From positions 1-9,911 of the forward strand of contig JAGVGX010000128.1 of the NCBI GenBank assembly GCA_020056865.1: 9,911 bases of DNA, read 5' to 3'. Positions 239 to 9,911 of the stretch are shown here, piece by piece. The notes under the pieces were generated by a model. That model ran no database searches, was not told where the DNA came from, and saw nothing but the letters and a program-made list of their open reading frames with translations. Made by a program: the position numbers and the translations under genes. The first letter of the stretch is position 1. Each line of letters starts with the position of its first letter. This DNA is from Desulfobacterales bacterium (lineage in GTDB: Bacteria; Desulfobacterota; Desulfobacteria; Desulfobacterales; BuS5).

Positions 239-1519
239 ATGACCGAACATGCAACATTAACATATCATGGGAAAACCTTTCTCTTGCCTTTAGTTAAAGG
301 TTCAGAAGGAGAGATGGCAATCGATATATCAGAATTACGCAACCAAAGCGGGCTTATTACCCTCGACCCTGGTTTTGCAAACACAGGCAGTTGCAAAAGC
401 AGCATAACTTTCATGGACGGAGAAAAAGGCATTTTGCGTTACCGGGGTTATCCCATTGAACAACTTGCCGAGCATTCAAGTTTCAGAGAGGTCGCCTATC
501 TTATGATAAACGGGAAGCTGCCGACAAATGAAGAAATAAAACGTTTTTCAATCCTGCTCAACGATCATTCCATGGTTCATGAGGATATGAGAACTTTTTT
601 TGAAAGTTTTCCAAGGGCGTCCCACCCCATGGGCATTCTTTCTTCAATGGTCAATGCGTTAAAAAGCTTTTATCCATATCTGGAAAACACAGAAGAAGAG
701 ATCAATATTACCGTGGCACGCCTGATCTCAAAAATCAGAACCCTTGCAGCCATGTCATACAAGATTTCAAGAGGACATAAAGTTGTGTATCCAAGCGCAA
801 GGCTTTCCTACTGTGAAAACCTGTTGAACATGATGTTTCATTCTCCTGTAAACCCGTATAAAATTGATCAGGATATTGTACAAGCGTTAAATGTATTTCT
901 GATTCTTCACGCAGATCATGAACAAAACTGCTCAACATCAACGGTTCGCATGGTGGGAAGCGGGAAAGTAAACCTTTATGCTTCGATATCCGCAGGGATA
1001 TCCGCCTTGTGGGGGCCTCTGCATGGCGGAGCAAATCAGGCTGTTATTGAAATGCTGGAGAAAATATCAAAAAAAGAAATGACTATTTCAGAGGCTGTTG
1101 CAAGAGCAAAAGACAAAAATGACCCTTTTCGACTTATGGGATTTGGGCACAGGGTATATAAAACACATGATCCACGCACCAGAATCATAAAGAAAACATG
1201 CGATGCACTCCTTTTAAAACTGAAAGTTAAAGATCCATTATTAGATATTGCCATGGAGCTTGAAGACATTGCAATCCATGACGATTATTTTATCGAATAC
1301 AACCTGTATCCCAATATTGATTTTTACAGCGGAATCATACTCCGCACGATCGGCATCCCCACCAATATGTTTACCGTCATGTTTGCCATCGGAAGATTGC
1401 CCGGATGGATTGCCCAATGGAAGGAAAGCATGGACGATCCGGAATGGAAGCTTAACCGGCCCCGACAGATTTACACAGGTCAGACAAAAAGGGATTACGT
1501 GCCTATTAATGAAAGATAA
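239..1519 (+). CDS. gltA: Citrate synthase, hexameric GltA type
   Basis: Condenses oxaloacetate and acetyl-CoA to citrate in the cytoplasm, the entry step of the TCA cycle; complete-oxidising sulfate reducers can use the cycle to oxidise acetyl units. The catalytic landmarks are all present: HADHEQN at 224-230, the active-site histidine in GPLHGGAN (H262), the second histidine in GFGHRVYK (H304), and the catalytic aspartate in PNIDFYSG (D361), with GRLPGW and RPRQIYTG near the end. At 426 residues it matches E. coli GltA (427) and keeps the extra N-terminal beta domain (about residues 1-50) of type II hexameric enzymes, which shorter 2-methylcitrate synthases of about 375 residues lack. The ATG at 239 has an AAAAGG ribosome site 8 nt upstream. 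The stop codon shares one base with the start of the following receiver gene. Confidence 0.96.
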   Translation: MTEHATLTYHGKTFLLPLVKGSEGEMAIDISELRNQSGLITLDPGFANTGSCKSSITFMDGEKGILRYRGYPIEQLAEHSSFREVAYLMINGKLPTNEEIKRFSILLNDHSMVHEDMRTFFESFPRASHPMGILSSMVNALKSFYPYLENTEEEINITVARLISKIRTLAAMSYKISRGHKVVYPSARLSYCENLLNMMFHSPVNPYKIDQDIVQALNVFLILHADHEQNCSTSTVRMVGSGKVNLYASISAGISALWGPLHGGANQAVIEMLEKISKKEMTISEAVARAKDKNDPFRLMGFGHRVYKTHDPRTRIIKKTCDALLLKLKVKDPLLDIAMELEDIAIHDDYFIEYNLYPNIDFYSGIILRTIGIPTNMFTVMFAIGRLPGWIAQWKESMDDPEWKLNRPRQIYTGQTKRDYVPINER

Positions 1520-1950
1520 TGATCAGGATGGTAGATTCAATAAAAAATAAAAAAATTCTGATCGTAGATGATGAGACGGATATGATTATTTTTGTCTCAA
1601 CGGTTGTAGAAACGATTGGGTTTAAACCAATTGCAGCTCATAGTGGCACGGATGCTCTGAAAAAATCACAATCAGAAATTCCTGACCTGATAGTTCTCGA
1701 TGTTATGATGCCAAAAATTGAAGATGGTATCCAAACATATTTTTATTTTAGATCCAACATAAAACTATCAAGCATCCCAATCGTTATCCTCTCTGCAATA
1801 GCCGAAAAAACATTTATGCATTTAATCAGAGTATTAAGCGCCCAGGAAGGCAAACATATCCCCGTGCCTCAAGCATATATGGAAAAACCTCCGGATGCGA
1901 CTAAGCTTTCCACCCTGATAAAAAGTATTCTGTCTAATAATACATTTTAA
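1519..1950 (+). CDS. Stand-alone response-regulator receiver protein (first paralogue)
   Basis: A 143-residue protein that is only a CheY-like receiver domain, with no DNA-binding or enzymatic output. It has the acidic pair D17/D18 in KILIVDDE, phospho-acceptor D61 in LIVLDVMMP, the conserved serine S92 in ILSA and the lysine K123 in YMEKPP, so it should be phosphorylatable. Between beta4 and beta5 there is an unusually long segment (about 95-118), shared with the paralogue at 9145-9585. The ATG overlaps the citrate synthase TAA (TAATG), suggesting translational coupling. An in-frame ATG at 1528 (M4) is a possible alternative; neither start has a strong Shine-Dalgarno. A likely role is phosphate shuttle or partner-binding switch for the kinases encoded next; this is inferred from context only. 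Confidence 0.93.
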   Translation: MIRMVDSIKNKKILIVDDETDMIIFVSTVVETIGFKPIAAHSGTDALKKSQSEIPDLIVLDVMMPKIEDGIQTYFYFRSNIKLSSIPIVILSAIAEKTFMHLIRVLSAQEGKHIPVPQAYMEKPPDATKLSTLIKSILSNNTF

Positions 1951-2008: not shown

Positions 2009-4285
2009 ATGATAAAATATATCAAGATCGTCCCGCATAGCTTGTTTTCAAAACTATTTCTCCCTGTTGGTCTGGCTTTAATTTTTAGTTTGTCAATATG
2101 GGCATATTTCAATACACAACAGTACAAAAATAAAATGACCGAAGACATGATCATAAGCGCAGATCGTTTGGCGCAAACGATCTTACTCGGAATCCATTAT
2201 TCTATGATGCATAATTTAAAAAATGACATCAACACTATCATAAAAAAAATTGATGCTCAGAATAATTTAGAAAATATAAGCATATACAACAAAAATGGCC
2301 AAATAAAATTCTCCAATAAAACGATTGAATCCAGCCAGACTCTCAATACGAACGATCCTATCTGTTATGTTTGCCACAAATCGCAAACGCCTCTTTTCCA
2401 ACTTAACATATCCGAAAAAACCCGTATATTTTATTCTCCAAATGGTTATCGCCTGCTCGGGCTCGTCAATCCAATCTATAATCAAACCGGCTGTGCTTCC
2501 AAGGGTTGTCATGTGCAGCATAATGAAAAAAAAGTAATAGGGATTCTGGATCTAATTGTTTCTCTTGAGAAAACCGACGATGAGCTGTTGGCATTTAAAA
2601 AGCGACTCATGGTTCAAGCCATATTAACATTTATACTGATATCCGTCTTGATTTTTCTTGTTTTCCTGCGTTTTGTAAAGCGCCCTTTAAGGAAAATGAT
2701 TGAAGGAACACTCCGCATTTCAGCCGGCCAATATCATTCTAAAATCAACGTCATTCAAGATGATGAACTGGGACTTTTGTCCGATACGATTAATAAAATG
2801 GGGGGAAAAATCGGCGAGAAGCAGGGCGAACTGAACAAACAAAAAGATGAATATCAACACCTTTTTGAACTTGTTCCATGTATTATAACGGTTCAGGACA
2901 AAAACTATAAACTTGTAGGTTATAATCGCGAATTTGAACAAAAATTCAAACCCAAACTGGGAGATTACTGTTACTTTGCATATAAGGGACGCAACAAGCA
3001 ATGCGAAATTTGCCCGGTTCACATGACGTTTCAAGATGGGCAGTCCCATTTCAGTGAAGAAAGAGGTGTAGATAAAAACGGCAACCCAACATTTTGGATA
3101 GTAAAAACATCACCTGTAAAAAATTCCGATGGTGAAGTTGTTGCTGCCATGGAAATGAGCCTTGACGTCACCAATATAAAAATACTTGAAGAAGAGCTTG
3201 AAAAATCAGAAAAAAAATACCACGCTATATTCAATAATATCCCAAATCCAATTTTTGTTATGGATTCGGAAACGCTGGAGATTCTTGACTGTAACAAAAG
3301 CGTAGAGGTTGTTTACGGATATTCCTGTGATGAAATCATTGGAAAATCTTTTCTTTTTATGTTTAAGGACAATGAGAAACAGGTGTATTCAGAAAAAATA
3401 AAAAACACCTCCATCATCAACCGGGCAAAGCATATTAATAAAAGCGGTCATACACTGTTTGTTGATATCCGGATATCGCCTTTCAACTATCCGGGAAGAG
3501 AGGTTTGGCTTGTTACAACCAGTGATATAACTAAACAACTGGAAACCGAACAACAACTGATTCAAGCAAGTAAAATGGCAACTCTGGGAGAAATGGCAAC
3601 CGGCATCGCACATGAAATTAATCAACCGCTTACGGTAATCAAAACAGCCAGTAATTTTTTTATGCGCAAAATAAATAGAAAAGAGCCGATTACCGATGAA
3701 ATTTTTTTAACTATGTCTAATGAAATAGATGCCCAGGTTGACAGAGCTTCCAAAATCATCAATCACATGAGACAATTCGGAAGAAAATCAGATAGAAAAC
3801 TTGTGCAAGTCAACATAAACGAAACACTCAAAAAAGCTGTTAATATTTTGGGGCAACAGTTAAAAGTCATGGGAATCGATCTGGTATGGGAGCTTGAAGA
3901 AAATCTTCCTTTTGTCTCAGCAGATCCTAATCGTCTGGAACAGGTTTTTATAAATTTGTTGATAAATGCACGGGATTCAATTGATGACAAATGGCAATCC
4001 AGGATGCAGCCAGGAAAGGGGAAAACAATAACACTGAAAACCTGTTTAAATAATAAAAAAATTGTAGTAGAAATAAGCGATACCGGCTCAGGAATCCCCA
4101 AAGAACATATTGATCGCATATTTGAACCGTTTTTTACTACCAAAAAGGTAGGTCAGGGAACCGGTCTTGGCCTTTCCATAAGCTACGGTATTATTCAGGA
4201 ATGTAACGGCGATATTAAAGTGGTATCCGATAAAGACCAGGGGGCCAAATTTATAATGACGTTTTCAATAGCGGATGAAGCGTGA
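2009..4285 (+). CDS. Membrane sensor histidine kinase with heme-c-type extracytoplasmic domain
   Basis: Likely inner-membrane redox or ligand sensor. Layout: TM1 about 13-33; extracytoplasmic domain about 34-200 with CX2CH (C119-H123) and CX4CH (C162-H168) motifs, the spacings that attach heme c in tetraheme cytochrome c3; TM2 about 201-223; HAMP about 220-275; a PAS domain (about 280-392) with C321, C332 and C335; a second PAS (about 400-510); HisKA with phospho-histidine H535 in GIAHEINQP; HATPase with N-box NLLINARDS (649-657), G1 DTGSGIP (691-697), FEPFFTTK and G2 GQGTGLGLS. All kinase motifs are intact. The 758-residue frame starts at ATG 2009 directly before TM1; no in-frame upstream start exists, and the only purine-rich stretch (GGGAAAGGGG, 1980-1989) lies about 19 nt upstream, so initiation may be weak or structured. 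It overlaps the next gene at TGATG. Heme attachment itself is inferred from motifs. Confidence 0.93.
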   Translation: MIKYIKIVPHSLFSKLFLPVGLALIFSLSIWAYFNTQQYKNKMTEDMIISADRLAQTILLGIHYSMMHNLKNDINTIIKKIDAQNNLENISIYNKNGQIKFSNKTIESSQTLNTNDPICYVCHKSQTPLFQLNISEKTRIFYSPNGYRLLGLVNPIYNQTGCASKGCHVQHNEKKVIGILDLIVSLEKTDDELLAFKKRLMVQAILTFILISVLIFLVFLRFVKRPLRKMIEGTLRISAGQYHSKINVIQDDELGLLSDTINKMGGKIGEKQGELNKQKDEYQHLFELVPCIITVQDKNYKLVGYNREFEQKFKPKLGDYCYFAYKGRNKQCEICPVHMTFQDGQSHFSEERGVDKNGNPTFWIVKTSPVKNSDGEVVAAMEMSLDVTNIKILEEELEKSEKKYHAIFNNIPNPIFVMDSETLEILDCNKSVEVVYGYSCDEIIGKSFLFMFKDNEKQVYSEKIKNTSIINRAKHINKSGHTLFVDIRISPFNYPGREVWLVTTSDITKQLETEQQLIQASKMATLGEMATGIAHEINQPLTVIKTASNFFMRKINRKEPITDEIFLTMSNEIDAQVDRASKIINHMRQFGRKSDRKLVQVNINETLKKAVNILGQQLKVMGIDLVWELEENLPFVSADPNRLEQVFINLLINARDSIDDKWQSRMQPGKGKTITLKTCLNNKKIVVEISDTGSGIPKEHIDRIFEPFFTTKKVGQGTGLGLSISYGIIQECNGDIKVVSDKDQGAKFIMTFSIADEA

Positions 4286-5430
4286 TGGAAAAATCAATTT
4301 TATTGGTCGATGACGAAGAAGGTATTCGTAAGGTTCTTGCAATGACCCTAACTGATATGGGTTACGATGTCCTTACATCCGATAACGGTAAAAATGCGCT
4401 GTTAATCTTCAAAAAGGTTAAGCCTCTTATTGTCATCTCGGATATAAAAATGCCTGAAATGGATGGCATTGATTTTCTCCGCATGCTAAAACAGGAAAAT
4501 CCGGAAACCCAAGTTATTATGATCACCGGTCACGGAGATATCGATCTGGCCATAAAAAGCGTTAAATATGATGCTACTGATTTCATAACCAAACCGATTA
4601 ACAATGAATTTCTTGAAATTGCTTTAAAAAGAGCACAGGAAAGGATAGCCATTCGCAATCAGTTAAAAGAATATACATTAAATCTTGAGCAACTTGTTCG
4701 CGAAAAAACTAAAAAACTTATTGAAACTGAACGAATGGCAGCTATTGGACAGACCATAATGGGATTGAATCACGCTATAAAAAATATTGCAAGCGGCCTT
4801 AAGGGCGGAGAATTTGTTTTGGAAAAAGGAATTGAGATGAACAATCGAAAATATTTGATTCAGGGGTGGGAAATGGTTAAGGGTAATGTTGAGAAAATAA
4901 CAACTCTGTCCCTTGATCTTCTTGATTACGCAAAACCCACTGAAATAAATTATCAAATATGCGACCCGAACCTGCCTGTACATGAAGTCGCTGATCTTAT
5001 GAAGTTTAAGGCTGAAGAACTGGATATTGAATTAGCTGTTGATCTTTGTCCGGTTTTAAAAAAAATATGTTTCGATCCTGAGCTGATACACCGATGCCTC
5101 CTTAACCTTCTTACAAACGCTCTGGACTCCTGTAAAAATTTTACCCCGAATACAACAAATAGGAAAAAAATTCTTATTAAAACGGTTCATGCAAGCGGAT
5201 GGGGAGTTGAATATCAGGTCATTGATAACTGCTGTGGAATGAGCCAGGATATAAAAAACAGACTTTTCAAAGGTATTTTCAGCACAAAAGGCTCCTGTGG
5301 GACAGGCATCGGATTGATGATAACAAAAAAAATAATCGATGAGCATAAAGGTATTATAGAAGTCCTGTCTGAAGAAGGCACCGGTTCAACATTTATTATT
5401 AAAATACCGGAAGGCCTGCCAATAGATTAA
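4285..5430 (+). CDS. Receiver-histidine kinase fusion protein
   Basis: A cytoplasmic hybrid with the receiver at the N-terminus. Residues 1-120 form a receiver with acidic pair D9/D10, phospho-acceptor D53 in ISDIKMPEMDG, T81 and K103 in TKPI. A helical linker (about 112-150) leads to a kinase core with an atypical H-box, GLNHAIKN (H163), an N-box NLLTNALDS, and a G2 box GTGIGL. The G1 box reads DNCCGM (314-319), where DNGxGI is usual: the first glycine is a cysteine. The ATG at 4285 shares its A with the preceding TGA stop; a GTG one codon earlier (4282) is an alternative start. With the kinase just upstream it makes a plausible two-step relay: the heme-type kinase phosphorylates D53, which controls the second kinase. 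The partners are inferred from gene order. Confidence 0.92.
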   Translation: MEKSILLVDDEEGIRKVLAMTLTDMGYDVLTSDNGKNALLIFKKVKPLIVISDIKMPEMDGIDFLRMLKQENPETQVIMITGHGDIDLAIKSVKYDATDFITKPINNEFLEIALKRAQERIAIRNQLKEYTLNLEQLVREKTKKLIETERMAAIGQTIMGLNHAIKNIASGLKGGEFVLEKGIEMNNRKYLIQGWEMVKGNVEKITTLSLDLLDYAKPTEINYQICDPNLPVHEVADLMKFKAEELDIELAVDLCPVLKKICFDPELIHRCLLNLLTNALDSCKNFTPNTTNRKKILIKTVHASGWGVEYQVIDNCCGMSQDIKNRLFKGIFSTKGSCGTGIGLMITKKIIDEHKGIIEVLSEEGTGSTFIIKIPEGLPID

Positions 5431-5459
5431 AACAGTTAATTTATACAAAATAAGTCACG

Positions 5460-7184
5460 GTGAATGACCCATTAATAAAATACAGTCAACTGACTAACAT
5501 TTTTGATTTTTTTACCATGGGGGTTATGATTTTATCCCTGGATCGAAAAATCATTTCCTTCAATAGTACTGCAGAATTAATCACAGGGTATAAAAATGCA
5601 GAGGTAATTGGCAGGTATTGTTATGAAGTATTTCTGGATACGATATGCGGAGGAACATGTCTTCATAAAAACGCCTCACATGTTGATCTCCATCGGAATA
5701 AAAGCACCCATGAAAAAGAACACCTTGTAAATCATCGCCACGGCATTACCAGAATCATTGCCCCGCTTAGCGATCCGGATAAAAAATGTTGTGGATATAT
5801 TGAGGTCTTTCAGGATCAATCCGCTTTAATTGATCTTATAGACCGAATAAGGCATGATGATCGCAGATTGAAACTCATCCTCGACAATCTTGACATCGGA
5901 ATTCTGACCGTTGACTGCGGCGGCCACATCACCTTTTTTAACACCAGGTCTGAAACCATTACCGGTTTTAAGCGTGAAATGGTTCTTGGAAAATCCTGTG
6001 CTTTGATTTTTAGCACAACATCCGGAAAAGAAATTTCAATGCTAAACACCACGATTGCCGATGGAAATGCGCATACAAGCCAGGAAGGAGAAATAAAAAC
6101 AAGGCTTGGGCAGATGATTCCTATACGGGCAAACTATATGGCCCTTAAAAATGAAGATGAACGCATTTTTGGAGGATTGGTAACCATTTCAGATCTTTCA
6201 TTGATTTACCAGTTTAACAACGTCATAAAAGATCGATATACATTCTACGATATGGTTGGCCGGGACCCGGCAATGCAAAAAATTTTTGAGATTCTTCCTG
6301 TTGTCGCTTCAAGCTCCGCAACAGTTCTAATAGAAGGGCATACAGGAACCGGCAAGGATGTCTTGGCAAAGATTATCCATCATGCCAGCCCGAGATCCAA
6401 AAAGCCCATGGTCAAAGTCAATTGCGCGGCGCTTCCCGACAACCTTCTTGAATCAGAGCTGTTCGGATACGTCAAAGGCGCATTCACCGGAGCTGAAAAA
6501 GACAAGCCGGGCCGATTCCAGGAAGCAGACAATGGAACAATTTTTTTAGATGAAATCGGAGATCTGCCTTTAACACTTCAGGCAAAACTGCTTCGCGTTC
6601 TCGAAGACAAAGAATTCTATCCCCTGGGAAGCAGAAAAACAGCAAAAGTAGATGTTCGCATCATATCCGCAACCAACCAGAATTTAGAACAGCTTGTTCA
6701 TGAAAAACGCTTTCGGAACGACTTGTATTACCGTCTGAATGTGTTGCGTTTTGAAATGCCTCCTCTCAAAGACAGAAAAGGAGATATCCCCCTGCTCATA
6801 TCTCATATTATGAAGCGTCTTTGTCTTATCAGAGAAACATCAGTTGAAAATATTTCGGAAGAAGCCATGGAAGTTCTTTTAAATCACGATTTTCCAGGCA
6901 ACGTTCGCGAGCTTGAAAATATCATTGAACACGCCCTTATTGTCTGCAAAGATAACGTAATCAAACGAAAGCATCTGCCTATCTCGCTTCAAAATACAAT
7001 ACGTCCAGCGCATCAGGAAAATAAAGCGGGCAGTCTTGATCGGGAAATAACAGCCACTGAAAGAACCATCATCAGCGATATGTTGAAAAAACATGGATGG
7101 AACAGAAAAAAAACCGCACAGGCATTGAACATTAATCGCACAACACTATGGCGAAAAATGAAAGCGTATAACATCACAAATTAA
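5460..7184 (+). CDS. Sigma-54-dependent transcriptional activator, PAS-PAS-AAA+-Fis, no receiver
   Basis: A bacterial enhancer-binding protein that uses ATP to open sigma-54 RNA polymerase promoters. PAS1 (about 12-120) carries C54, C63 and C67 (C-X8-C-X3-C) plus C110/C111. PAS2 spans about 135-250. The AAA+ domain (about 263-490) has Walker A GHTGTGK (293-299), the sigma-54 contact loop GAFTGA (340-345), Walker B IFLDEIG (361-367) and [10 protein letters not shown] (417-426). A Fis-type helix-turn-helix ends the protein (about 534-572, [18 protein letters not shown]). There is no receiver domain, so control is probably by PAS ligand, redox state or protein contact rather than aspartyl phosphorylation. 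The start is GTG at 5460 with a poor ribosome site, 29 nt after the preceding stop. Its probable target lies just downstream: an inverted repeat at 7247 and a sigma-54 promoter at 7529. Confidence 0.95.
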
Positions 7185-7246
7185 CACTCGTAACATCGCG
7201 TCCCTACCCTCTTTTTTTTGATGTTCACATATATCCGCAATAGCAA

Positions 7247-7262
7247 TGCAACGTATGTTGCA
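7247..7262. promoter_or_regulatory. Candidate upstream activator site (TGCAAC-N4-GTTGCA)
   Basis: TGCAAC (7247-7252) and GTTGCA (7257-7262) form a perfect inverted repeat around GTAT. The 16-bp size and the form of the half-sites resemble NtrC-type enhancers (TGCACC-N4/5-GGTGCA), which are bound by Fis-type helix-turn-helix domains. Two more GCAAC copies follow in direct orientation at 7271-7275 and 7281-7285. The site lies about 60 nt after the sigma-54 activator gene and about 300 nt upstream of the predicted transcription start, a workable distance for DNA looping. Binding by the neighbouring activator is inferred. Confidence 0.55.
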
Positions 7263-7528
7263 CATACAAAGCAACATTTTGCAACAGTAAAGTTTTTGTG
7301 TTTTAATAATAGAAAATCGCCATTGTAAAAATTTTAATCTTTAATATTTAGATACTTATAAAATAAAACCTTCCGTTGTTACACGTATCGGCACCCTTTT
7401 TCTTACGGCTTGTAACGATGCAATACAGCAACACTGATTATTTCCTCACCCTGCTTCCCAGAAACCATTCATCCCTTTAACTGCCTTAAAATAAAAGAGA
7501 TTTAAACATTTAATTTTTAAAAAACCAC

Positions 7529-7545
7529 CTGGTACAATTAGTGCT
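7529..7545 (+). promoter_or_regulatory. Sigma-54 (-24/-12) promoter
   Basis: CTGGTAC at 7529-7535, the spacer AATTA, then GTGCT at 7541-7545. The invariant GG (7531-7532) and GC (7543-7544) are separated by exactly 10 nt, as required for sigma-54, and TGGTAC/GTGCT differ from the consensus TGGCAC/TTGCW at one base each. Transcription would start near 7556 and read into the gene at 7681 and probably on through the universal stress protein, receiver and tmcD-like genes. It sits downstream of a sigma-54 activator gene with a candidate enhancer between them, which raises confidence. Confidence 0.72.
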
Positions 7546-7570
7546 AAAGAAAAGGGGAAAGGTGGGAAGT

Positions 7571-7626
7571 AAAGGCTGAAAAATGAAAGCTGTTTATATT
7601 TGCAATTGACTGGTTTTCAGTTTTTT
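7571..7626 (+). promoter_or_regulatory. Leader hairpin with U-run, possible attenuator
   Basis: In the predicted sigma-54 transcript CTGAAAA (7576-7582) pairs perfectly with TTTTCAG (7614-7620). The pairing can extend through AAAGG (7571-7575) and TTTTT (7621-7625) to about 12 bp, including two G-U pairs. A competing local hairpin, ACTG (7609-7612) with CAGT (7618-7621), ends directly in a T-run. These mutually exclusive structures between promoter and first gene look like an attenuator or regulated terminator. The stems are AT-rich and the long-range loop is 31 nt, so chance is a real alternative. Confidence 0.3.
7583..7609 (+). CDS. Possible 8-codon leader peptide
   Basis: An ATG at 7583 preceded by AAAGG with a 7-nt gap opens an 8-codon frame (MKAVYICN) that ends at TGA 7607-7609. 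It lies entirely within the predicted sigma-54 leader and inside the loop of the long-range hairpin, and its ribosome site would be masked by that pairing. It could be a translated leader that affects the hairpin; there is no run of a single amino-acid codon as in classical attenuators. Very short frames arise often by chance. Confidence 0.18.
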   Translation: MKAVYICN

Positions 7627-7680
7627 AACACACAACAATTAAACCTGCTGACTTAAAATAATTTTTAATGAAGACATAAT

Positions 7681-8214
7681 ATGAACCTTGTCACTTTAAA
7701 ATCAGATGGCACAATTTTCCGCAGGGACAGTATTTTGGAAGCTGATCCGCTCAGCCTTTTAAATTGTCAGGTAGAACTTGATAAAAAATTCACATTAAGA
7801 AGCTATTTCCTCATGCTTGAAAATTATCCGCTGTTATCAAGGTTAAATCCTTTTTTCCCGACAATTATGGAACAGTATCATGCCTGCCCAGAAAGCAACT
7901 GCATCTGGGATGGAATCAACAGTTTTGAATTCAGCAAGGCAGTCGAAATGATAGGGTTCCCCAAAAAGCGTTTGGAAATTTACAACACGTTTCTCGGTGT
8001 ATGCGGAAAAAAACGATTTGAAATTAAATCAATGCAGCTTGAACATCTTTTGGACATTACCGTTAACCTTGGAAAGGTTAGACACATAATCTTTGGTGAC
8101 CAAATTGACCTGTTTGAATTTGATACGGTCTTTACGCTATTCGAGTTTATCGAAGGAATTTTATGGGAGCTTAGCTTTCATGCCAACCCGAAACAATGTG
8201 ACATCAGGAGGTGA
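7681..8214 (+). CDS. Conserved-looking hypothetical protein, first gene after the sigma-54 promoter
   Basis: A 177-residue protein I do not recognise. It has no signal peptide, no clear membrane helix and no familiar motif. It is probably a cytoplasmic, mostly helical protein, with aromatic-rich segments around 42-65 (YFLMLENYPLLSRLNPFF) and 145-166. Cysteines sit at 29, 69, 74, 108 and 173, with C69/C74 in an ACPESNC motif. The ATG at 7681 has a GAAG ribosome site 7 nt upstream. Its stop codon lies inside the Shine-Dalgarno of the next gene, so the two are translationally coupled and probably work together. As the first gene of the predicted sigma-54 operon ahead of a universal stress protein, a regulatory or adaptor role is possible but unsupported. 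The open frame, good start and coupling make it a real gene. Confidence 0.85.
   Translation: MNLVTLKSDGTIFRRDSILEADPLSLLNCQVELDKKFTLRSYFLMLENYPLLSRLNPFFPTIMEQYHACPESNCIWDGINSFEFSKAVEMIGFPKKRLEIYNTFLGVCGKKRFEIKSMQLEHLLDITVNLGKVRHIIFGDQIDLFEFDTVFTLFEFIEGILWELSFHANPKQCDIRR
8206..8214 (+). promoter_or_regulatory. Near-perfect Shine-Dalgarno overlapping a stop codon
   Basis: AGGAGGTGA is fully complementary to the 3' end of 16S rRNA and sits with ideal spacing (6 nt after AGGAGG) before the ATG at 8218. Its last three bases are the TGA stop of the upstream gene. It is by far the strongest ribosome site among the full genes here and predicts high translation of the universal stress protein. Confidence 0.85.
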
Positions 8215-8217
8215 CAT

Positions 8218-9138
8218 ATGTTTAAGAAAATACTCTTTGCAACAACAGCATCGCCAACATGCGACAATGCCGCTAAAGTGGCATTTGATCTGGAGGATAA
8301 ATGGGATGCCAAACTTTATGTTTTTCATGTTTTAGGTATACCAACAAGAGGTTTCAGCCAATATATCACAGACGCCAGGACAGGTGAATCTGAAGAAAAA
8401 GATGATGACTACATCGACTGGGTCAAAGAAGAACTCAAAAATACCTATGATAAATTAATAACAGATGAAAAAAATACAGTGATTGAAACCGCCATTGGTG
8501 TTCCTCATCGAGAGATATTGAGACTGGCTCGCAGGGAAGACGTTGATTTAATCATAATGGGCGCTCATACACGAGAAGAGGATGTGGGCGCTACACGTTA
8601 CCGCAGTGTCGTTGGCAGCACAATGCAAAAAGTAGCTAAAGCAGCCCGATGTCCTGTGGTTGTAATCAGCCGTCCCTGCACCACCTGCTGGAAATTATTT
8701 TCCAATATTGTTTTTGGTACAGATTTTTCAAAAGCAGCAGACTCCGCTTTTCTCTTTGCGCGTAACCTTGCCAATGAGGTCGGAGCAAAGCTTCACATTT
8801 TTCATGCATGTGAAATCAGTACAGGATCCGCCGGTCAGGTAAAAGATCAGGAAGAAATTGAAAAAATGATTAATGTGGCCAAGAAAAAAATGCAACCGCG
8901 TTACGTATCTAAAATGAATGGCTTTGATAACTATGATATCGAAGTTCGGGAAGGCATCCCATATGTTGAAATATTAAAATTTGCTCGTGAAAAATTGGGA
9001 GACCTAATTGTCATGTCTCACCATGCAAAAGAAATTAAAGAAGAAGATGCTGTGCTTGGCAGCACAATTGAGCAAGTCATACTGCGTGCTGGTTGCCCTG
9101 TTGCCAGCGTGAATCATCCTGACAAAGTATCTGATTAA
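8218..9138 (+). CDS. Tandem-domain universal stress protein (UspA family)
   Basis: A cytoplasmic nucleotide-binding stress protein of 306 residues made of two UspA domains (about 1-151 and 160-300). Domain 1 begins FKKILFATT and carries the nucleotide-loop residues MGAH (114-117) and VGST (132-135), ending with RCPVVVI. Domain 2 begins FSNIVFGTDFS and carries LGST (280-283), ending with GCPVASV, but the usual 'GxxG' start of its loop reads SHHA, so the second site may bind ATP poorly or not at all. The domains are joined by a PCTTC linker (C154, C157). It follows a very strong ribosome site and is coupled to the upstream hypothetical gene; the next receiver gene starts 6 nt after its stop. 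Usp proteins modulate survival and energy stress; the exact partner is unknown. Confidence 0.94.
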   Translation: MFKKILFATTASPTCDNAAKVAFDLEDKWDAKLYVFHVLGIPTRGFSQYITDARTGESEEKDDDYIDWVKEELKNTYDKLITDEKNTVIETAIGVPHREILRLARREDVDLIIMGAHTREEDVGATRYRSVVGSTMQKVAKAARCPVVVISRPCTTCWKLFSNIVFGTDFSKAADSAFLFARNLANEVGAKLHIFHACEISTGSAGQVKDQEEIEKMINVAKKKMQPRYVSKMNGFDNYDIEVREGIPYVEILKFAREKLGDLIVMSHHAKEIKEEDAVLGSTIEQVILRAGCPVASVNHPDKVSD

Positions 9139-9144
9139 TCATCA

Positions 9145-9585
9145 ATGAACGCGTTGATTTTAAACGGGAATGACAACTTAAAAATGAAAAAAAAAAAGAT
9201 TCTTATCGTAGATGATGAAATAGACATGAGAATTTTTATATCCACACTTCTGGAAACTGCGGGGTATAAATCACTGGTGAGCAGGAATGGTAAGGAAGGC
9301 ATCTTAAAAGTTAAAAAATTTATGCCTGATCTTATCATATTAGATGTCATGATGCCGGAAGAAGGCGGTGTAAAAATGTACCGTCAATTAAAAACAGACA
9401 ACAAACTAAAAAACATACCGGTAATTATGCTTTCAGCAGTAGCCAAAAAAACATTTTTTCATTACTTGAACATGTTAAACGTTCAATCCATGCACCCTGT
9501 CTCCGAACCGGAGGCATACATGGAAAAACCGCCGGAGGCTACAGTGTTGCTTAAAATTATCAAACAGCTTGTCGGCATAGGATAA
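9145..9585 (+). CDS. Stand-alone response-regulator receiver protein (second paralogue)
   Basis: A receiver-only protein of 146 residues with the acidic pair D23/D24 in KILIVDDE, phospho-acceptor D67 in IILDVMMP, S97 in MLSA and K128 in YMEKPP. It resembles the receiver at 1519-1950 over its whole length, roughly half identical by eye. The two share KKILIVDDE near the start, the long beta4-beta5 segment beginning KKTF/EKTF, and the YMEKPP-(D/E)-AT ending. The annotated ATG at 9145 lacks a ribosome site; an in-frame ATG at 9184 (M14, MKKKKILIV) gives a more typical receiver start and lies 14 nt after GGGA, so the true start may be there. It lies 6 nt after the universal stress protein stop and is probably in the same operon. 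Confidence 0.92.
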   Translation: MNALILNGNDNLKMKKKKILIVDDEIDMRIFISTLLETAGYKSLVSRNGKEGILKVKKFMPDLIILDVMMPEEGGVKMYRQLKTDNKLKNIPVIMLSAVAKKTFFHYLNMLNVQSMHPVSEPEAYMEKPPEATVLLKIIKQLVGIG

Positions 9586-9660
9586 TTTTTATTACTAACT
9601 CATAACACTAACGGAATGAAACATCATATGATTTTAAAAATGACGATACAACAACAATTC

Positions 9661-9666
9661 AGGAGA
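9661..9666 (+). promoter_or_regulatory. Shine-Dalgarno deciding the start of the tmcD-like gene
   Basis: AGGAGA lies just upstream of three closely spaced ATGs at 9667, 9671 and 9674. The frame at 9667 stops after four codons, whereas 9671 and 9674 are in the long open frame, so translation should begin at one of these two; 9674 gives the more usual spacing. Confidence 0.7.
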
Positions 9667-9670
9667 ATGC

Positions 9671-9911
9671 ATGATGCTTGATGCAAACAATTGGGATTGG
9701 GACACCGGTCAACGATTGATATCAGATATGAATCAGTGGCAGAGTAAATTTAATTGGATTGAGGAGCCGCAAGTCTCTCAAAACGGAGAAAAAATAGCGG
9801 CCATTGTCAACAACTCTGAAGGTGAATTCAATGTGTGCGTAAACGATGAAACATGGGAACAGTCATTCGAAAAAATCTGGTATCTCAGATTTTCACCTGA
9901 CTGTCGTTTAA
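9671..9911 (+). CDS. tmcD: TmcD-like electron-transfer complex subunit, N-terminal fragment
   Basis: An open frame of 80 codons running off the right edge. The N-terminus has a WDWDTGQ motif, then EEPQVSQNGEKIAAIV and a second strand-rich segment with WEQSFEKIWYLRFSPDCR. This repeating 'xxSPDGxxxAAIV ... W' pattern is that of WD40/PD40-like beta-propeller blades. From memory it resembles TmcD, the soluble propeller-like subunit of the Tmc complex of sulfate reducers, which with tetraheme cytochrome TmcA, iron-sulfur TmcB and membrane TmcC links periplasmic hydrogen or formate oxidation to cytoplasmic electron carriers. There is no signal peptide, consistent with a cytoplasmic subunit. It follows the receiver gene by 85 nt with no terminator. 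The TmcD identity rests on recognition of a fragment; another beta-propeller protein is possible. Confidence 0.6.
   Translation, partial: MMLDANNWDWDTGQRLISDMNQWQSKFNWIEEPQVSQNGEKIAAIVNNSEGEFNVCVNDETWEQSFEKIWYLRFSPDCRL

Follow-up and report, generated by a model that had tools for sequence, protein, structure and literature searches.

The present analysis concerns a stretch of 9,911 nucleotides from a Desulfobacterales bacterium (assembly GCA_020056865.1, contig JAGVGX010000128.1), the whole of which is referred to as the window, and in particular the set of signalling and regulatory genes that it carries immediately upstream of tmcD, a gene of the electron-transfer complex Tmc. We consider it probable that these genes belong to a redox-responsive control cassette, which is kept beside a trans-membrane electron-transfer complex (in a few cases a Qmo/Hdr-like one) and controls that complex. 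In the lineage of the window the cassette appears to switch tmc on via a dedicated sigma-54 promoter, as suggested by a predicted promoter with phased upstream sites that recurs in related loci. The question at stake is how sulfate reducers determine in which direction, and how strongly, electrons flow between the periplasm and the cytoplasm; a cassette that adjoins both Tmc and Hmc, and for which an orphan gene can be named and the promoter and its sites precisely predicted, makes this question testable. The following features were identified in the window:

1519-1950, plus strand: RRa, receiver-only protein of 143 aa, paralogue of RRb (Pfam Response_reg, E 8.5e-14)
2009-4285, plus strand: HK, membrane histidine kinase of 758 aa (Pfam domains and heme motifs)
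4282-5430, plus strand: RRHK, hybrid of a receiver and a HATPase_c domain, 382 aa (Pfam)
5460-7184, plus strand: EBP, sigma-54 activator of 574 aa (Pfam Sigma54_activat, E 1.6e-71; HTH_8, E 6.4e-13)
7247-7262, no strand assigned: distal GTTGCA element, palindrome TGCAACGTATGTTGCA, read from the sequence
7270-7285, minus strand: distal tandem GTTGCA-N4-GTTGCA with one mismatch, kept between EBP and D177 in 13/13 EBP loci
7416-7433, no strand assigned: proximal activator-site candidate (TGTTGCA-N4-TGCAACA, 11/14 positions matching), at -114 from the promoter TGG
7530-7545, plus strand: predicted sigma-54 -24/-12 promoter TGGTACAATTAGTGCT, score 14.1 of 15.5, 151 bp before D177
7681-8214, plus strand: D177, orphan protein of 177 aa (291 homologues)
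8218-9138, plus strand: USP, tandem universal stress protein of 306 aa (Pfam Usp, two stretches, E 3.5e-42)
9145-9585, plus strand: RRb, receiver-only protein of 146 aa (Pfam Response_reg, E 3.9e-18)
9671-9911 (window end), plus strand: first 80 codons of tmcD (NF045725, TmcD_fam)
239-1519, plus strand: citrate synthase, the window gene upstream of RRa

The tmcD fragment matched NF045725 with E 4.3e-30 and 104.9 bits over profile positions 2-75 of 412; because the window ends there, the 440-bit whole-protein cut-off of this model is out of its reach. The original prediction had described positions 2009-9911 as one co-directional block with a heme-type kinase, a receiver-kinase hybrid, two receiver-only proteins, a receiver-less sigma-54 activator, a universal stress protein and a tmcD-like gene. 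All genes indeed lie on the plus strand and all of these kinds of gene exist, but D177 was missing from the list, and only RRb of the two receiver-only proteins lies within that interval, RRa preceding it. Moreover, EBP and D177 are separated by a gap of 496 bp (7185-7680) that holds the sigma-54 promoter. With the other intergenic gaps being short (RRa-HK 58, HK-RRHK -4, RRHK-EBP 29, D177-USP 3, USP-RRb 6, and RRb-tmcD 85 bp), the block probably consists of two transcription units, RRa-HK-RRHK-EBP and D177-USP-RRb-tmcD. Promoter-like sites of the sigma-70 type were at background level between 7100 and 9911 (10 versus 8.0), and the same region contains five predicted terminators compared to 2.3 in the background, none of them in the RRb-tmcD interval. 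The citrate synthase gene, the end of which is overlapped by the start codon of RRa, has no counterpart in the related loci (0/80) and is outside the module.

The sigma-54 promoter and its GTTGCA sites

The region upstream of D177 was compared among the 13 loci with a linked EBP, i.e., the window and 12 relatives. A -24/-12 element is located 71-151 bp before D177 in all 13. The promoter score of the window was reached in 0/200 shuffles, and the same applies to the best score of every other locus except L024 (1/200). Further upstream, a palindrome with 11-14 of 14 matches to TGTTGCA-N4-TGCAACA is positioned at -114 to -116 from the TGG in 11/13 loci and at -127/-128, one helical turn further, in 2/13, while the number of palindromes expected in all 13 regions was 0.33 using base shuffling and 0.65 using a first-order Markov model. 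Distal tandem GTTGCA repeats are also present in 13/13 loci, with 17 sites compared to 0.04-0.09 expected in randomised copies. At the level of sequence, D177 is thus preceded by a -24/-12 target promoter with upstream sites.

In a total of 81 sequences (1.23 Mb of locus DNA), 185 promoter-like sites score at least 13.5. Seventeen of these are paired with a site at -85 to -140, and in every case D177 follows directly. For four of the 17 pairs (L012, L028, L047, L061) there is no same-strand EBP immediately before them, in three cases due to the proximity of the contig start. A D177 promoter without palindrome is seen in L037 and L078, and the promoter score of L025 is borderline (13.5).

An alternative is that HK, RRHK and EBP regulate distant genes and are found beside tmc owing to shared gene-order ancestry only. 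As the citrate synthase gene illustrates, adjacency alone proves little, and a genome-wide search with a loose site and promoter pattern, which had matches in 17/17 genomes, was not specific (50 matches versus 26 in the reversed control). Nevertheless, EBP is accompanied by the promoter and the phased sites in 13/13 loci, the promoter-site pair is found nowhere else in the locus DNA, and HK-RRHK stays with the module also in loci without EBP, so that we regard two independent neighbours as very unlikely.

In L024 a triple GTTGCA direct repeat with an 11-bp period was noted at 3786-3814, approximately 180 bp before RRa, and autoregulation of the kinase-activator unit is possible at this locus.

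Distribution of the module and the complexes beside it

Related loci were found using D177. A scan of contigs from one genome per species with the single D177 sequence found nothing; repeated with a 24-sequence alignment (the window and 23 of the 120 matches listed) it returned 83 hits, of which 80 were kept. Gene presence in these loci was determined by BLAST with window and reference genes at a minimum of 40% identity (36% for TmcA); many contigs are short, and the resulting counts leave out divergent members. USP was present in 78 loci, RRb in 66, RRPASHK (a receiver-PAS-kinase) in 61, HK in 50, RRHK in 47, RR3 (a receiver of the related loci that is itself not in the window) in 37, EBP in 15, and RRa in 9.

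The proposal of a conserved module is borne out by the gene order, since HK-RRHK-EBP-D177-USP-RRb recurs in other genomes. The proposed physical link to tmc also holds: tmcD stands at the window edge, and in L001 a full-length TmcD gene followed by tmcC, tmcB, and tmcA comes after RRb, all scoring above the NCBIfam cut-offs. The eight loci of the EBP type that show genes past tmcD (L001, L002, L003, L004, L006, L011, L014, L015) all read tmcD-C-B-A-RR3-RRPASHK, as determined by BLAST for seven and additionally by NCBIfam for L001, and L013 and L029 end too early to show these genes. In another locus, L128, there are two complete tmcDCBA sets in tandem.

The complexes adjoining the 80 D177 loci are Hmc only in 34, Tmc only in 23, both in 10 and neither in 13, i.e., Tmc and/or Hmc genes are present in 67. 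Eleven of the 13 loci without either complex are on contig pieces of at most 12.4 kb. Two of the 13 have Qmo/Hdr-like genes. In these two, L010 (4349-10058) and L024 (12203-13603), QmoC-like/HdrD-like and HdrA-like genes take the place of tmc/hmc; these score below the exact NCBIfam cut-offs except for one general NAD(P)-binding subfamily model. EBP, promoter, D177, USP, and RRb are retained in both loci. In 36 loci the first module gene encountered upstream of D177 is hmcF, mostly at less than 200 bp, which suggests that D177 is probably co-transcribed with hmc there.

The co-occurrence of D177 and Tmc was examined in three draws of genomes. In a draw from the phylum (198 genomes), TmcD was above its cut-off in 25 genomes, HmcA in 19, and D177 was found in three, all with TmcD; in one of the genomes (G017) D177 is beside hmc and 615 kb away from tmcD. 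In a draw from the class Desulfovibrionia (100 genomes), TmcD was found in 64 and D177 in 24, all within the 64 (Fisher p 3e-6, uncorrected for kinship), and tmcD is on the same contig as D177 in 24/24, within 6.2 kb in 23 and at 20.7 kb in one. In a draw from the order of Desulfosarcina alkanivorans (96 genomes), TmcD was above its cut-off in 64 genomes, D177 was present in 32 and both in 29 (Fisher p 2.6e-4); among the 32 D177 genomes, a same-contig tmcD is within 20 kb in 17, far away in three, and absent in 12. According to these counts a genome with D177 nearly always has Tmc as well, whereas the presence of Tmc does not predict that of D177.

These numbers also bear on a further alternative, namely that signalling genes cluster in an ordinary manner in genomes rich in two-component systems without forming a functional unit. 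Sulfate reducers of this group do have many kinases, with 109 histidine kinases given for one genome in PMC2702500. In view of the D177-TmcD co-occurrence, with tmcD on the same contig in every Desulfovibrionia genome with D177, and of an order kept between divergent lineages, we consider ordinary clustering highly improbable.

Tmc loci lacking such neighbours had been named beforehand as evidence against the original prediction, and the Desulfovibrionia show that they exist. Of the 40 D177-less tmc loci in Desulfovibrionia, 36 have no full-length module gene (at least 40% identity, approximately 10 kb) and four have one (L120, L122, L124, L140); the 36 consist of tmcD-C-B-A or a similar arrangement, flanked by other genes. 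The prediction therefore survives in part only. A module dedicated to Tmc is rejected in view of these loci together with the Hmc and Qmo/Hdr-like neighbours of D177, which adjoins Hmc more often than Tmc.

A different putative switch was identified in Desulfovibrionia. In 6/6 tested loci a gene divergent to tmcD encodes a protein of 307-355 aa in which a receiver is joined to a DNA-binding domain of the Rrf2 type. Two of these genes are located as follows, the other loci being L066, L070, L076, and L077:

L065 1339-2280, minus strand: Rrf2-receiver fusion, divergent to tmcD
L086 4281-5222, minus strand: Rrf2-receiver fusion, divergent to tmcD

The receiver of the fusion is closest to RR3 (DVU0259 family, above the cut-off). 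Judged by its predicted domains, the fusion independently connects a receiver with DNA binding at a tmc locus, and together with the sigma-54 promoter data it indicates two distinct ways in which the module is tied to the transcriptional control of tmc.

The proteins of the relay and their putative function

HK consists of a periplasmic PAS-like sensor, HAMP, two PAS domains, HisKA, and HATPase_c (Pfam), with the heme motifs CxxCH at 119-123 and Cx4CH at 162-168 of the sensor. Residue conservation was determined from alignments of matches with at least 40% identity and more than 85% of the query, leaving out divergent members. CxxCH and Cx3-4CH c-type heme motifs are present in 36/36 filtered HK homologues, so that the periplasmic motifs are conserved, in line with the designation as a heme-type kinase. 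The H-box HE..N is likewise found in 36/36, and the ATPase boxes are complete. One HK relative, the metagenome protein P0123, is shorter by the 11 residues that include the first heme motif. The structural model of the sensor (predicted local distance difference test, pLDDT, 76.9) has WalK-type PAS sensors and 3b42, the heme sensor GSU0935, as top PDB matches. This Geobacter chemoreceptor resembles HK in its periplasmic PAS-like fold with a heme motif at the matching place, whereas HK has a further CxxCH plus Cx3-4CH motif. The motifs suggest that HK may bind heme and monitor how reduced or oxidised the pool of periplasmic cytochromes is.

RRHK has no HisKA match in Pfam and lacks the acidic residue that follows the histidine in HisKA kinases. 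Its H-box reads H-A-I-K-N; in the aligned family the histidine is kept in 48/48, position +1 is A, T, S, or G, i.e., not an acid, in 48/48, and Asn is at +4 in 47/48. In RRPASHK the H-box histidine is kept in 49/49 and an acidic neighbour is present in 0/49, with Gly or Ser at +4. The receivers of both proteins are complete. Viewed together, the two families share an H-box H-x-[IV]-K-[NGS] without acidic neighbour in 97/97 aligned sequences (window/L001 copy included). In HisKA kinases the acid after the H-box histidine is needed for kinase but not for phosphatase activity (PMC3510030). The lack of this acid, together with Asn at +4 of RRHK, the position needed for phosphatase activity, suggests that RRHK and RRPASHK may act as phosphatases or relays. 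We do not claim that RRHK is kinase-dead, as the H-x-I-K motif may represent another H-box class.

RRa is 46% identical to RRb over 127 aa and keeps the phospho-acceptor Asp, Ser, and Lys in 10/10. Neither protein reaches the 160-bit cut-off of the DVU0259 receiver family NF045717 (61 bits for RRa and 84 for RRb, for which it is the best NCBIfam match), and RR3 exceeds it with 180-183 bits. EBP has two N-terminal PAS domains, an AAA+ domain, and a Fis-type helix-turn-helix, and no receiver. The GAFTGA motif is present in 12/12, which with the Fis-type domain identifies EBP as a sigma-54 enhancer-binding protein; Cys54, 63, and 67 of the first PAS domain are conserved in 12/12. D177 had no match in Pfam or NCBIfam at E 0.01. 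Both D177 and HK have full-length homologues, and an alignment of 74 D177 sequences has 13 invariant columns, in which Cys173 is invariant and Cys74 nearly so.

Based on these properties we propose the following mechanism. The first unit (RRa-HK-RRHK-EBP) would produce the membrane kinase with its heme motifs, the receiver-kinase hybrid, a free receiver, and the sigma-54 activator, and the second (D177-USP-RRb-tmcD, with tmcCBA in relatives) would be transcribed from the sigma-54 promoter. HK may sense the redox state of the cytochrome pool via its bound heme, and phosphate may flow between HK, RRHK, and the receivers. The signal could reach EBP through its Cys-bearing PAS domains or through contact with RRa/RRb, upon which the linked EBP would bind the phased GTTGCA sites and open the D177 promoter. 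RRb, USP, and D177 may then feed back on the complex.

Several observations weigh against a control cassette acting in this manner. The proximal site of the window is among the weakest of the 13, and the motif was derived from the very sequences in which it was then counted, which are related, so that the site counts are no independent test. The genome-wide pattern was unspecific and does not point to an exclusive regulon. Since EBP is without a receiver, the route from the relay to EBP is hypothetical. The model of the HK sensor is poor near the second heme motif (pLDDT below 50 at model residues 128-140), and in a profile search with the sensor 3b42 came first but weakly (E 0.0024), with an unrelated chain at E 0.0069. 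D177 is absent from 40/64 Desulfovibrionia genomes with tmcD, i.e., many tmc loci do without the module, and a same-strand EBP immediately precedes D177 in 12/80 D177 loci, leaving most of them without a linked EBP. According to PMC5109826 most Tmc subunits are found at low abundance in each of the 17 substrate conditions, a pattern not suggestive of a strong on/off switch. In favour of regulation, on the other hand, PMC11887813 describes Tmc as the exception among the complexes of sulfate respiration, the others being highly abundant and constitutive in six strains.

Some of the opposing observations would suit a post-translational role, in which a core of D177, USP, and receivers acts on the complex itself, with RRb and its partners controlling either the passage of electrons or assembly, and EBP adds transcriptional control locally. 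The core follows three kinds of complex, and linked EBPs are infrequent as noted above. RRa, RRb, and RR3 are receiver-only proteins, RRHK and RRPASHK have a kinase ATPase domain rather than a DNA-binding domain at their C-terminal end and lack the acid needed for kinase activity, and D177 and USP are near-fused, with a gap of 6-7 bases in 42/77 loci. However, contact of the core with Tmc or Hmc is hypothetical, and a transcription regulator is linked in at least two lineages, i.e., EBP with its promoter and the Rrf2-receiver fusion. We consider this reading unlikely and prefer the redox-responsive control cassette. As a tentative extension, which we also regard as unlikely, D177, USP, and the receivers could represent a portable phospho-switched unit that binds and gates the adjoining complex (Tmc, Hmc, or Qmo/Hdr-like), with a transcription switch (sigma-54 activator or Rrf2-receiver) that is exchangeable between lineages.

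Comparison with published systems

The module is real, conserved, and in outline already in print. For Desulfococcus multivorans, the genes listed as tmc/hmc neighbours encode histidine kinases, response regulators, and a universal stress protein, and the neighbourhood described for this organism and D. vulgaris has the same kinds of genes beside tmc and hmc; D177, a sigma-54 promoter, and an activator do not appear in the available part of that account (PMC5109826). The lineage of the window adds EBP and RRa and, as far as seen, has no Hmc between the parts. What the present analysis adds is the orphan D177, the division into two units with a sigma-54 promoter and phased sites specific to the second, the finding that the module also adjoins other complexes, and a transcription switch that differs from lineage to lineage. 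Going by family name and gene order, DVU0258-0262 of D. vulgaris probably correspond to RRPASHK, RR3, RRb, USP, and D177. A literature search, with most subscription papers outside its coverage, retrieved no paper dissecting tmc control by this module, and PMC3333781 had no match for tmc or four D. vulgaris locus tags of the tmc region. Opposite effects of Tmc and Hmc in growth on hydrogen are reported in PMC4215793, where the fitness effects of the two vary between similar experiments for a cause left unexplained.

A functional parallel is DVU3142 with the ohc operon, for which sigma-54 control was predicted (PMC4641369). Both systems have a sigma-54 activator beside a trans-membrane cytochrome complex with a predicted promoter and activator sites. 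They differ in the complex (Ohc), in the activator being divergent from its target, and in the kinase-receiver-USP-D177 set, which is not described in the available text of that study; its main text has zero occurrences of 'tmc'. With tmcD rather than ohc as putative target, the system in the window is not of the DVU3142-Ohc type, but would work alike.

By analogy, the Rrf2-receiver fusion of Desulfovibrionia may combine in a single protein what rrf1 and rrf2 represent beside hmc. Of these two, Rrf1 belongs to the response regulators and Rrf2 to the Rrf2-type repressors. Both are regulators of hmc expression in D. vulgaris and are encoded beside hmc according to PMC10924467, whereas in the Desulfovibrionia tmc loci analysed here the Rrf2 domain and the receiver are in one protein. 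For Solidesulfovibrio carbinolicus, the same source notes that a gene for a universal stress protein is located at the hmc locus (PMC10924467).

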